The notes below the pieces were generated by a model. It was not told where the DNA came from and did no database searches. It worked only from the letters and a program-made list of their open reading frames with translations. The position numbers and the translations under genes are program-made. From positions 1 to 24,155 of the IMG/VR virus record IMGVR_UViG_3300022075_000023: a DNA stretch of 24,155 bases. The stretch is one strand, 5' to 3'. This DNA is from a virus. Of this stretch, positions 8,184 to 10,885 are shown in pieces. Positions within the stretch are counted from its first letter, which is position 1. Every line of letters starts with the position of its first letter.

Positions 8184-9677
8184 CTAGTAGTCATCCCGCC
8201 AGTCGGCGGGGTCGACCTCGTCGAGGAGGTTCCCGCGGCGGGTGATCGGGTGCAGCAGCAGCTGGTTGAGCGCCTGCGTCATGGCGTCGACGGTGTCGTC
8301 ATGGGCGGCGTTGGGGAAGTTCACGATCTCCGAGTGGAGGTCCTTCACGTTCGCCAGCAGCGCCGGCTTCGGGAGGTGGACGTTCCCGGAGTGCATGAAC
8401 GGGGACACGGCGTGGGCGCGTTCGACTTTCCCCCCGGCGGGCTCCACGGGGATGAGCCCGGGGATGCGGCCCTTGAGGAGGGTGATGAGCGCGGACCCGT
8501 TGGCCTTGTCCTCCACGAACTTCGCGGCGGCCTGCGGCCACTTCGCGGACATGGTCTCCACGGCCTGGATCTGCGCGTTGAAGTCCATCCGCTTGCGGAC
8601 CATGTCGAGGAGGTATGTGTTGCCCCCGATGCGGAGCCACACCTGACCGACGGTGTAGTCCGCAGAGGGGGTGTCCTTGACGGACAGGTCCCAGGACTGC
8701 ACGAGCTCGGTGCCGGGCTGCACACCGACGGCGGGGACGCGGTGTGCGCCGCGGTCGTCCACGGTCCACAACGGCTGTTCGTAGTCGGGGACGGTGTGGG
8801 GGAACACGCCGCCCTCGGGAGGTGCTGGGCGGCCCTGGTAGAGCGCCGCCCACGTGTAGGGACCGGACGCCTGCTTGCGTTTCTCCCACTGTTCGGGGGT
8901 GGTGCCTCGGACGTCTCGCATCCACTCGCCGGGTTCACGGCCGAGGGGGTCTGTTTCGCCGGCGTCGGGGTCGTGGTCGGCTTGCGCGGGGATGCGGACG
9001 AACTCCCAGTCGCCGGGGTCGTGTTCCATGACCTGCCCGGCGAGGTCGTTCTCGGACCAGCGGGTGAGGACCATGACAACGGGGGCTCCGCGGGAGCCGG
9101 TGGCGAGGCGGGAGAGCGCGGTGCCGGTCCACCAGGACCAGGTCTTCTCCTGGATGGTCTTGGAGTTCGCTTCGGCGTGCCCTTTGACGGGGTCGTCGAT
9201 GATCATCAGGTCGGAGGGTTTGGACGTGAGGGAGCCTCCGACGCCGGCGGTGAACATGCCGCCGATGGTGCCTTCGAGGAGCCACTCGTTCTGGGATGAC
9301 ACGTCGTGGCGGACGGTGAGGCCGAGGCGGGCGGAGTGTTCCATGAACTCGTCGCGGACTTTGCGGCCGAAGGTTCGGGCGATGTTGGCCTGGTAGGAGG
9401 CCAGGGTGATTCTGGTTTCGGGGCGCTGGGTGAGGGCCCAGACGGGGAACCAGTGGGAGCAGAGTTCCGACTTGCCGCGCTGCGGTGGCATGGAGATGAT
9501 GAGCCGGGAGTCGGGGGTGTTGAAGGCTTCCACGAGCTTCTGGTTGATGAGCTCGAGGTCGGGGGAGCGCATGACTCGGGGGTCGAGTGCTTGGGCGAGG
9601 TCGAGGGGGCTGTCCCAGCCGGTGGTGGTGCGGTCGAAGTGCTGCGCGGCGAGTTCCCACACGGAGGGGGCGGTCAT
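8184..9677 (-). CDS. terL: Terminase large subunit
   Basis: The 497-residue DNA packaging motor has an N-terminal ATPase and a C-terminal nuclease. Visible motifs are Walker A MPPQRGKS (63-70), Walker B DLMIIDDP (156-163), a VLTRW coupling segment (203-207), and the nuclease acidic cluster SWDLS (Asp330), FVEDK (Glu389/Asp390) and HDDTVDA (Asp460/461). All key residues are present, so it should be active. The start at ATG 9677 has GGAGGG nearby; upstream in-frame sequence to 9881 runs through the tRNA-Trp gene and is not coding. No HNH endonuclease gene is seen next to it. Confidence 0.95.
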   Translation of the reverse strand: MTAPSVWELAAQHFDRTTTGWDSPLDLAQALDPRVMRSPDLELINQKLVEAFNTPDSRLIISMPPQRGKSELCSHWFPVWALTQRPETRITLASYQANIARTFGRKVRDEFMEHSARLGLTVRHDVSSQNEWLLEGTIGGMFTAGVGGSLTSKPSDLMIIDDPVKGHAEANSKTIQEKTWSWWTGTALSRLATGSRGAPVVMVLTRWSENDLAGQVMEHDPGDWEFVRIPAQADHDPDAGETDPLGREPGEWMRDVRGTTPEQWEKRKQASGPYTWAALYQGRPAPPEGGVFPHTVPDYEQPLWTVDDRGAHRVPAVGVQPGTELVQSWDLSVKDTPSADYTVGQVWLRIGGNTYLLDMVRKRMDFNAQIQAVETMSAKWPQAAAKFVEDKANGSALITLLKGRIPGLIPVEPAGGKVERAHAVSPFMHSGNVHLPKPALLANVKDLHSEIVNFPNAAHDDTVDAMTQALNQLLLHPITRRGNLLDEVDPADWRDDY

Positions 9678-9757: not shown

Positions 9758-9787
9758 CGCGATTTGGTTCCAAGCTGCGCGGCGCAG

Positions 9788-9860
9788 CGCCGACCGCAGG
9801 GCTCGAACCTGCTACCTCTGGTTTTGGAGACCAGTGCTCTACCTGTTGAGCTAGATCGAC
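9788..9860 (-). tRNA. tRNA-Trp (CCA anticodon)
   Basis: The 73-nt minus-strand sequence folds as a full cloverleaf: acceptor GTCGATC with GGTCGGC (seven pairs, two of them G-U), D stem GCTC/GAGC, anticodon stem CTGGT/ACCAG with loop CTCCAAA giving anticodon CCA, and T stem GCAGG/CCTGC with loop TTCGAGC. The discriminator base is G. The 3' CCA is not encoded, so the host would add it. A short hairpin (GCTGCG/CGCAGC) follows directly, perhaps for processing. Phage tRNA-Trp genes are known; the benefit here is unknown. Confidence 0.95.
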
Positions 9861-9918: not shown

Positions 9919-9989
9919 TGCGTCGTGCCGGAGTTGAACCGGCCAGCCCCACGGGATCACCGGCGGCTGTGCAACCGATCGCTCGACGC
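9919..9989 (-). other. tRNA-like fold, no canonical anticodon arm
   Basis: This 71-nt sequence has a perfect T arm (GCCGG, loop TTCAACT, CCGGC) and acceptor strands GCGTCG and CGACGC that pair over six bases, with an A-A mismatch at the seventh. Discriminator is A. The 39 nt between have no 5-bp stem with a 7-nt loop, so no anticodon can be assigned. It may be a decayed tRNA or a tRNA-like domain of a larger RNA. It lies 58 bases upstream of tRNA-Trp in the same orientation. Confidence 0.45.
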
Positions 9990-10040
9990 GTCCCGCTGGG
10001 CGATGAACTCCGGCGGGGGTGTGTTGTGGGCAGGTACGCC

Positions 10041-10252
10041 TTGCCGGTTACACCGAACTTCCTACGGTGGCCGGGTCCGTCCTTCACGGTGGAAACCCGC
10101 CGGACGCAGTCCAAGACGTCCGGCGGTAAAGACCGTGTGAACCCACAAGTTTGGGGCCCTGCCGGGGGAGGCGCCGTGAACCCGTGTTGCTACGCACTAG
10201 GAGGGCCTGCAACCCCGGCAGGGAGTCTGTTTTGGGCGCGCTCGTTGCGCCC
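10041..10252 (-). ncRNA. Strongly structured non-coding segment (putative RNA)
   Basis: No protein gene is credible here. The segment has four strong inverted repeats: CACCG/CGGTG (10051-10055/10065-10069) flanked by CCGG/CCGG; a perfect 10-bp stem (10097-10106/10117-10126); a perfect 11-bp stem CCCTGCCGGGG (10157-10167/10213-10223) enclosing GTTGC/GCAAC (10186-10190/10209-10213); and GGGCGC/GCGCCC (10234-10252). The last lies at the expected start of transcripts from the promoter at 10260-10289. The motif CGTG(TG)AACCC occurs twice (10133-10144, 10173-10183). I do not recognise the RNA. It lacks visible tmRNA tag codons and RNase P signatures. A leader for antitermination or a packaging site is possible. 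Confidence 0.5.
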
Positions 10253-10259
10253 GTGTTCC

Positions 10260-10289
10260 GTTTTACCAGCTGTTACCAGGTAACGTCAA
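10260..10289 (-). promoter_or_regulatory. Minus-strand promoter with palindromic operator in its spacer
   Basis: TTGACG (10284-10289) and TAAAAC (10260-10265) are separated by 18 bases. The spacer holds the palindrome GTTACCAGGTAAC (10272-10284), whose last base is the first base of the -35 box. The -35 box matches consensus at five of six positions. The element overlaps the stop of the gene at 10286. It would drive the structured RNA, the tRNAs and perhaps the late operon, and a repressor bound to the palindrome would block it. Confidence 0.65.
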
Positions 10290-10885
10290 GTCATTTCGAG
10301 GAGGACCCGGACCACGTCGCGGGCGTGGTAGTACGGGTTCTTCCCGGGCACCTGGAGGGCCGGGGTGATCTGTCTCCGGTCTTTCCACCGTTTGATCCGG
10401 TCGGCTTGGATGCGGATCCCGCAGTGCTCGCGGAGCCAGGGCACGAGGTGCCGGGACTGCATGGGGGGCAGGGTCTCGACGTACTGCCACTGTTCGGCGG
10501 TCCACTGCTCCTGTTCGCCGTCGAGCATGGTGCGTGCGTGCTGGCAGGTGGTCCGGACCTGGTGGGTGAACCGGTGGGCGTCGGTGTGGTGGGGGAGTTG
10601 GTCGAGGTCCCCGTCCCACCTGGTGGTGAGGTTGTGGTGGGCGACGAGGGCGGACAGGTTGAGGGGGATTGCGGGCCCGTAGACGTGGGTGGTGTGCGCG
10701 GTGCGCTGCAGGGCCGGGGTGGCTTCTTTCCGGGCGATGAGGAGGAGGGTGTGGAGGTCGTCCTCGGTGAACCCGTCCACGAGGGCCATGGTTTCGGCGT
10801 GGCAGTCCCAGCAGATCCAGGTGTGCGGGGCGGGCCGGCCGCAGCGCAGCTCGCACTCGTGGGGGGCATCGTCGTCGTGGTGCAT
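10286..10885 (-). CDS. Cys-rich protein with C-terminal MerR-like HTH
   Basis: The 199-residue product has an N-terminal zinc-type cluster (Cys11, Cys15, Cys25, Cys28 in CELRCGR...WICWDC) and a C-terminal segment (about 158-198, IRIQADRIKRWKDRRQITPALQ... ARDVVRVLLEM) resembling the small winged HTH used by excisionases and MerR-type proteins to pick DNA sites. The middle is His- and Trp-rich. It is the last gene of the accessory block, just upstream of the RNA region, and may regulate that switch point. The ATG at 10885 shares one base with the upstream stop. No known family name was recognised. Confidence 0.65.
   Translation of the reverse strand: MHHDDDAPHECELRCGRPAPHTWICWDCHAETMALVDGFTEDDLHTLLLIARKEATPALQRTAHTTHVYGPAIPLNLSALVAHHNLTTRWDGDLDQLPHHTDAHRFTHQVRTTCQHARTMLDGEQEQWTAEQWQYVETLPPMQSRHLVPWLREHCGIRIQADRIKRWKDRRQITPALQVPGKNPYYHARDVVRVLLEMT

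Follow-up and report, generated by a model that had tools for sequence, protein, structure and literature searches.

An anticodon-less tRNA-like element between the HTH and terminase genes of a viral genome, with counterparts in Arthrobacter phages

The window analysed here is the whole 24,155-nucleotide stretch of the IMG/VR virus record IMGVR_UViG_3300022075_000023. Its minus strand carries, at 9989-9919, a tRNA-like element (TLS) of 70 nt plus a discriminator A, whose fold is real and has no tRNA-type anticodon arm. Folds of a similar kind occupy the corresponding position in related viruses, so sequence comparison suggests that the TLS probably acts as a functional RNA signal and is not the remnant of a broken gene. 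Tentatively, we read it as a domain of the late-transcript leader that corresponds to the upper half of a tRNA and would most likely be cut by host RNase P, or else be released as a tRNA mimic.

Read from 9989 to 9919, the minus strand contains an acceptor strand, a 40-nt middle, a T arm, an unpaired A, the second acceptor strand and the discriminator A. A preliminary description had placed a tRNA-like fold with a perfect T arm and six acceptor pairs at 9919-9989. The coordinates were correct and both features are present; the tRNA sense is the minus strand. The acceptor is formed by GCGTCG (9984-9989) and CGACGC (9920-9925), which gives six pairs and not the seven of a tRNA acceptor, with A facing A at 7:66. 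The unpaired A is at 9926 and the discriminator A at 9919. The T arm, GCCGG-TTCAACT-CCGGC (9927-9943), has the five-pair stem and TTCRANY loop of a decoding tRNA. The minimum-energy fold (-36.4 kcal/mol, z -2.26, equally good folds in 7/200 shuffles) contains the acceptor, the T arm and two further hairpins. The first, GCGA-UCGG-UUGC (9971-9982), resembles a D arm and has GG within its loop. The second, CAGCC...GGCUG (9944-9969), sits where the anticodon arm would be. The earlier statement that the middle cannot form an anticodon stem of five pairs needs one correction: a five-pair stem, CAGCC/GGCUG, is possible there. With its 16-nt loop and no gap between it and the T arm, this stem does not qualify as an anticodon arm. 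The length, 70 nt plus discriminator, equals that of a normal tRNA, and the 3' side reads A-TCG, not ACCA.

The anticodon-arm test asked for five pairs closing a 7-nt loop, positioned as in a tRNA. It was passed by 66/71 control viral tRNAs and failed by the window TLS; U33 was present in 61/71 controls. At its normal cut-off ARAGORN made a single call, tRNA-Trp at 9860-9787, and did not report the TLS. Relaxed to 80%, it offered nothing convincing for the TLS, only a low-quality fold of 91 nt whose anticodon has two bases. The overlooked full cloverleaf that the preliminary description had allowed for is ruled out by ARAGORN at both settings and by the anticodon-arm test. Rfam gave no RF00005 match at the TLS; the top match on the same strand was tRNA-Sec, with 16.4 bits against a cut-off of 47. 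Plastid-ycf2 (RF04354) was rejected: it reached 24.2 of the 65.7 bits needed and lay on the opposite strand, and the antisense of Faja's tRNA matches this family too.

The combination of acceptor and T loop is tRNA-specific. A pattern made from the window acceptor and a T loop matched at least 71 distinct sequences on viral contigs, and among the matches listed 70/71 are tRNAs according to ARAGORN, three of the 70 with an undetermined anticodon. A scanner for acceptor plus T arm, run over both strands of the 24-kb window, found two places, the TLS and tRNA-Trp. Shuffled windows gave 0.1 matches each, and 0.01 when a full T stem was demanded. When the 608-nt intergenic strand was shuffled 20000 times, a strict match appeared in 18 shuffles, and in 2 if G-U pairs were disallowed, as in the window TLS.

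The TLS lies in sense orientation downstream of a gene for a 199-aa HTH-type protein (10286-10885, minus strand). It is followed by an intact tRNA-Trp(CCA) (9787-9860, minus strand), identified by ARAGORN and Rfam, and then by the terminase large subunit gene (8184-9677, minus strand; Pfam Terminase_6C and 6N). This place, 3' of the HTH gene and before the terminase gene, is called the slot below. By tblastn the HTH protein has relatives in 18 records (best E 1e-8); these are HTH-type proteins encoded close to the right end of the genomes of Arthrobacter phages. It matched phrog_908 with an E of 0.001, and the TripleJ HTH protein did so with 3e-34. The terminase shares 54% identity with those of TripleJ and Kukla and at most 56% with phage terminases of the collection. 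Megablast of the whole window against the phage collection gave no match, and searches for direct relatives with the 81-nt TLS segment (E 0.7 or worse) and the 297-nt leader gave chance-level matches only. Close relatives were also sought by pattern and by HTH protein, which yielded only a second IMG/VR record of the same virus, 100% identical over 13,650 nt and carrying the only other copy of the TLS. The last 54 nt of this twin contig (L083 13651-13704) diverge after the 13,650 identical nt in a manner reminiscent of a sequencing adapter. A promoter match was sought on the window stretch and none was found.

Anticodon-less tRNA-like elements were found 3' of the HTH gene in 25/25 Arthrobacter phage records (12 collected through the HTH protein, 2 through the terminase and 11, which are not independent, by blastn with TLS-region queries), 22 of them by a pairing scan and three by covariance model. 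The three missed by the pairing scan, in ArV2, Richie and Auxilium, were seen by eye and matched there by R2, a model of the phage tmRNAs discussed below. A strict scan of the slot gave a match in 10/24 further loci taken from the HTH alignment. Omitted from this set were L241, whose sequence stops at the HTH gene; L247, which is the ArV2 genome; L256, which is the window's own virus; and L257 and L258, which duplicate L232 and L233. L234 and L235 within it have near-identical elements. Strict non-tRNA matches numbered 15 in 22.0 kb of slots in the Arthrobacter records and 10 in 21.1 kb in the HTH loci. Off the slot, with both strands counted, the Arthrobacter records had 0 in 110 kb and the HTH loci 3 in 229 kb. 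Pooled, this amounts to 25 matches in 43 kb of slots versus 3 in 339 kb elsewhere. Variant-like elements were seen in the slot, by eye only, in L239, L244, L253 and L254. None was seen in the slots of L238, L245, L250, L259 and L260, and those of L242, L248 and L251 held tRNAs only. L250 has a perfect anticodon-less element with a AAUCCCCCCAU loop at 56-139, about 3 kb upstream of the slot and outside the usual place.

The elements vary in size from 47 nt (L233, L246) through 52-54 nt (Shoya, TripleJ, Kukla, L243) to 89 nt (L237), and the middle between acceptor and T arm from 18 to 58 nt across the family. Richie has an anticodon-less element followed by tRNA-Trp, which is the order in the window. 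TripleJ and Kukla, which are also terminase relatives of the window, carry the TLS; the closest terminase relatives (L004-L009, LuckyBarnes, Montesquieu and D_HF5_3) had none in the DNA examined. Slot elements are often annotated as tRNA-OTHER or Undet, and one as a tRNA-His with a presumed intron. In Gordonia phage Smoothie an undetermined-type tRNA (L002 2427-2504) lies just before tRNA-Trp; its acceptor, D arm and T arm are present and its anticodon region is broken. Rfam searches of 12 Arthrobacter phage loci gave no families beyond tRNA, tRNA-Sec, Plastid-ycf2 and a weak beta_tmRNA. In the titles and abstract openings of the open-licence papers retrieved we found no description of anticodon-less elements in actinophage late leaders.

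The interval between the HTH and terminase genes is where the genome ends are located in linear Arthrobacter phages. In TripleJ and Kukla the slot is near the genome end and the terminase starts from nt 13, as might be expected of a DNA-level element, either a cos/packaging signal or an attachment site, with palindromes that mimic a T arm. We consider this very improbable. The elements have a single orientation relative to transcription, an RNA-type T loop (partly required by the scanner) and a tolerance for G-U pairs, and they exist in many versions of unlike sequence.

Pairing was examined in 22 distinct elements. Of the acceptor and T-stem cells, 92.4% were paired, compared to 62.3% after shuffling and at most 46.2% after sliding. 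The observed percentage is partly built in, because the scanner insists on a paired acceptor and tolerates a single mismatch in the T stem. All of 500/500 shuffles and every slid version were far below the observed pairing. The covariation score was 0.743 versus 0.161, and 11/12 stem pairs had changes on both sides. The scanner requirement does not account for the range of pair types or for the enrichment at the slot. The covariation table leaves out elements whose acceptor has 6 pairs and that lack a spacer base, along with ArV2, Richie and Auxilium; Persistence was re-registered by hand. Alanine identity was rejected as a common function, G3:U70, the mark of alanine tRNAs, being present in just 3/22 elements.

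The preliminary description had offered two readings, a decaying tRNA or a tRNA-mimic domain, the latter as the putative 3' end of the structured RNA upstream. In the former, a tRNA beside tRNA-Trp would have lost its anticodon and D arms by mutation. The intact tRNA in tandem and the tRNA-like length fit such a history, and if the standard register is imposed, 3/5 stem pairs and a GAU loop like that of tRNA-Ile can be made out by eye. Decay would, however, have left the acceptor and T arm free of mismatches save 7:66 while all else was lost, and the same pattern, with stems that covary, recurs among the relatives. Of the 22 distinct elements, 13 lack the 7:66 pair, the window TLS included. 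A perfect anticodon stem with U33 is found in 0/32 distinct elements versus 6/7 standard tRNAs in the same loci; with one mismatch allowed the count is 6/32. 14/32 elements are shorter than 66 nt. Decay of a single tRNA does not explain the family. The check proposed in the earlier account, for relatives in which an intact tRNA occupies precisely this position, found none. For the window copy we judge decay unlikely. The mimic reading is strongly backed by the recurrent, covarying relatives in the same slot, and on these comparisons it is favoured over decay. The window TLS is tied to the family by its slot, orientation, fold, 7:66 mismatch and adjoining hairpin, and by HTH and terminase kinship; the closest terminase relatives, which had no TLS in the DNA examined, do not strengthen this tie.

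The adjoining hairpin, CCCGC...GCGGG-AC (9990-10017, minus strand), ends 2 nt before the TLS. A simple hairpin ending no more than 4 nt from the 5' side accompanies 18/44 distinct elements, the window's included, compared to 13.8% of control positions. In Arthrobacter phages it has a GNRA loop (GCCGCU-CGCC-GNRA-GGCG) or a AACAUGAG-type loop. C-rich hairpin loops (AUCCCCCCAU, ACCCCCAUA) recur in the leaders of L207, L208, L212, L214, L220, L225, L226, L234 and L240; the same loops are found in the TripleJ and Kukla terminators and in the loop that stands in place of an anticodon loop. By eye and alignment, the leader stretch at 10022-10101 (minus strand) resembles a leader motif of Arthrobacter phages (GAAGGACGGACC...GGCAAGG...ACCTGC). 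Model R1 hit the right place in the window with 9.4 bits and an E of 0.84, which is not significant and leaves the suggested homology unsupported by the model. R1 finds the motif in the slots of L214, L226, L230, L233, L237 and L239. The motif (GCGAAGG...CCGGG hairpin...GCCAAGGAC..ACCTGC) is conserved in Arthrobacter phages, for example at L207 1781-1854 and L208 2850-2927, and has no Rfam match. The same leader of the window holds a strong hairpin, CCGCCGGACG...CGTCCGGCGG (10088-10129, minus strand), which a CRISPR repeat model matches weakly (20.9 bits, cut-off 39). Two strong hairpins elsewhere in the window, at 222-273 and 2759-2797, gave weak matches to unrelated Rfam microRNA models and are perhaps terminators.

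The acceptor and T-arm part of a tRNA is the grip of RNase P, the 3' processing enzymes, the CCA-adding enzyme, EF-Tu and SmpB. The TLS appears to keep this upper half (acceptor stem, T arm and a D-like loop with GG) and to drop the decoding half. It would be transcribed within the leader of the late operon for packaging and structural genes, between the HTH gene and the terminase. RNase P measures the acceptor together with the T arm, and for this reason the host enzyme would be the most likely to act here, cutting the late transcript 5' of the TLS at 9990/9989. Such a cut would leave the upstream leader RNA with a stable hairpin at its end, and the acceptor would become the start of the downstream message or of the released TLS. 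Trimming of the 3' side and CCA addition may follow, and late gene expression would presumably benefit. Given the fixed leader position and the hairpin just upstream, we favour a cleavage site in cis, with a released mimic as the second choice.

A released, trans-acting mimic would occupy a host factor that grips the elbow and acceptor, such as SmpB, EF-Tu, RNase P or a tRNA-targeting defence enzyme. The topology of the TLS (acceptor, GG-containing D-like loop, one hairpin, T arm) is that of tmRNAs reduced to the tRNA-like domain (TLD) and without a messenger part. One of these was found at L077 1675-1755 (Rfam tmRNA, E 3e-22). A pattern scan of viral contigs for the TLD-only layout gave at least 120 stretches, with acceptor pairing in 105/120 listed. 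TLD-only tmRNAs comprise at least 81 distinct sequences; among the matches listed G3:U70 is present in 79/81 and GGAC before the T stem in 62/81. The Rfam tmRNA cut-off was passed by 7/9 TLD-only loci tested. Neighbours that were checked, L276 and following loci among them, include a small terminase, a DnaB-like helicase, a head protein, an RNA ligase and tRNAs. PMC4131195 lists mycobacteriophage DS6A as TLD only and reports inhibition of tmRNA by a similar molecule, perhaps through titration of SmpB, a precedent for a mimic; occupation of a host factor has been proposed for the DS6A domain. The kind is known from one phage in that article; its breadth appears larger.

R2, which models these phage TLD-only tmRNAs, picks the TLS in most loci, with 37.3 bits in L226 and 27.2 bits in L208, but gives the window TLS only 10.3 bits (E 0.018 in 801 nt). 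Because ordinary tRNAs score 15-20 bits, R2 matches to the Arthrobacter elements do not prove kinship with TLD-only tmRNAs. The window TLS was itself rejected as a TLD-only tmRNA: its Rfam matches do not include RF00023, it has G3-C70 rather than G3:U70, its D loop is not GGNUUCGAC, and the R2 score is low. With GGUUUCGAC also missing and a fixed slot that points to a role in cis, we regard a released mimic as possible but doubtful. Short GGGCTG-type elements turned up in 15 stretches of viral sequence; four of these have AT-rich contexts that look very unlike Arthrobacter phages. Those of the AT-rich contigs L263, L267, L268 and L272 are 63-66 nt long, and three share upstream sequence.

Looking beyond this virus, we propose with some reserve that actinobacterial tailed phages, and perhaps others, carry widespread minimal tRNA-like RNAs, down to 47 nt and consisting of elbow and acceptor only, as late-transcript punctuation or released mimics. 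Together with TLD-only tmRNAs these would form an anticodon-free layer of tRNA mimicry in DNA phages. If so, phages exploit the part of a tRNA that enzymes grip and discard the coding half, and many "undetermined" tRNAs of actinophage genomes would be explained. The TLS would be a natural minimal RNase P substrate, and why phages keep aberrant tRNAs would become testable. The wider family of TLD-only tmRNAs suggests that phages may also target ribosome rescue.

Several known RNAs invite comparison. The tRNA-OTHER or Undet genes of MidnightRain, Phrank15, Isolde, Tiff81, Hestia and Seahorse resemble the window TLS in slot, acceptor, T arm and odd anticodon region, but keep a tRNA-type D arm where the TLS has a short hairpin. 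MALAT1/mascRNA and the tRNA-like structures of plant viruses also place a tRNA-like fold on a long transcript, but they are eukaryotic and of other architecture. RNase P substrates named in PMC11143913 include phage M3 RNA, the phage-derived C4 antisense RNA and tRNA-like structures of viruses. According to the same article, the enzyme can be directed by nothing more than short guide RNAs that restore the acceptor and T stem. M3 RNA and C4 antisense RNA are, like the TLS, non-tRNA phage RNAs offered to RNase P; their cleavage is reported there, whereas that of the window TLS is inferred. The TLD-only ssrA of DS6A, as given in PMC4131195, shares with the window TLS an acceptor, a T arm, a D-like loop, the missing anticodon arm and an actinobacterial phage as its source. 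Unlike the tmRNA TLD and DS6A of that article, the window TLS has neither G3:U70 nor a GGUUUCGAC loop, and it occupies a fixed slot before the terminase.
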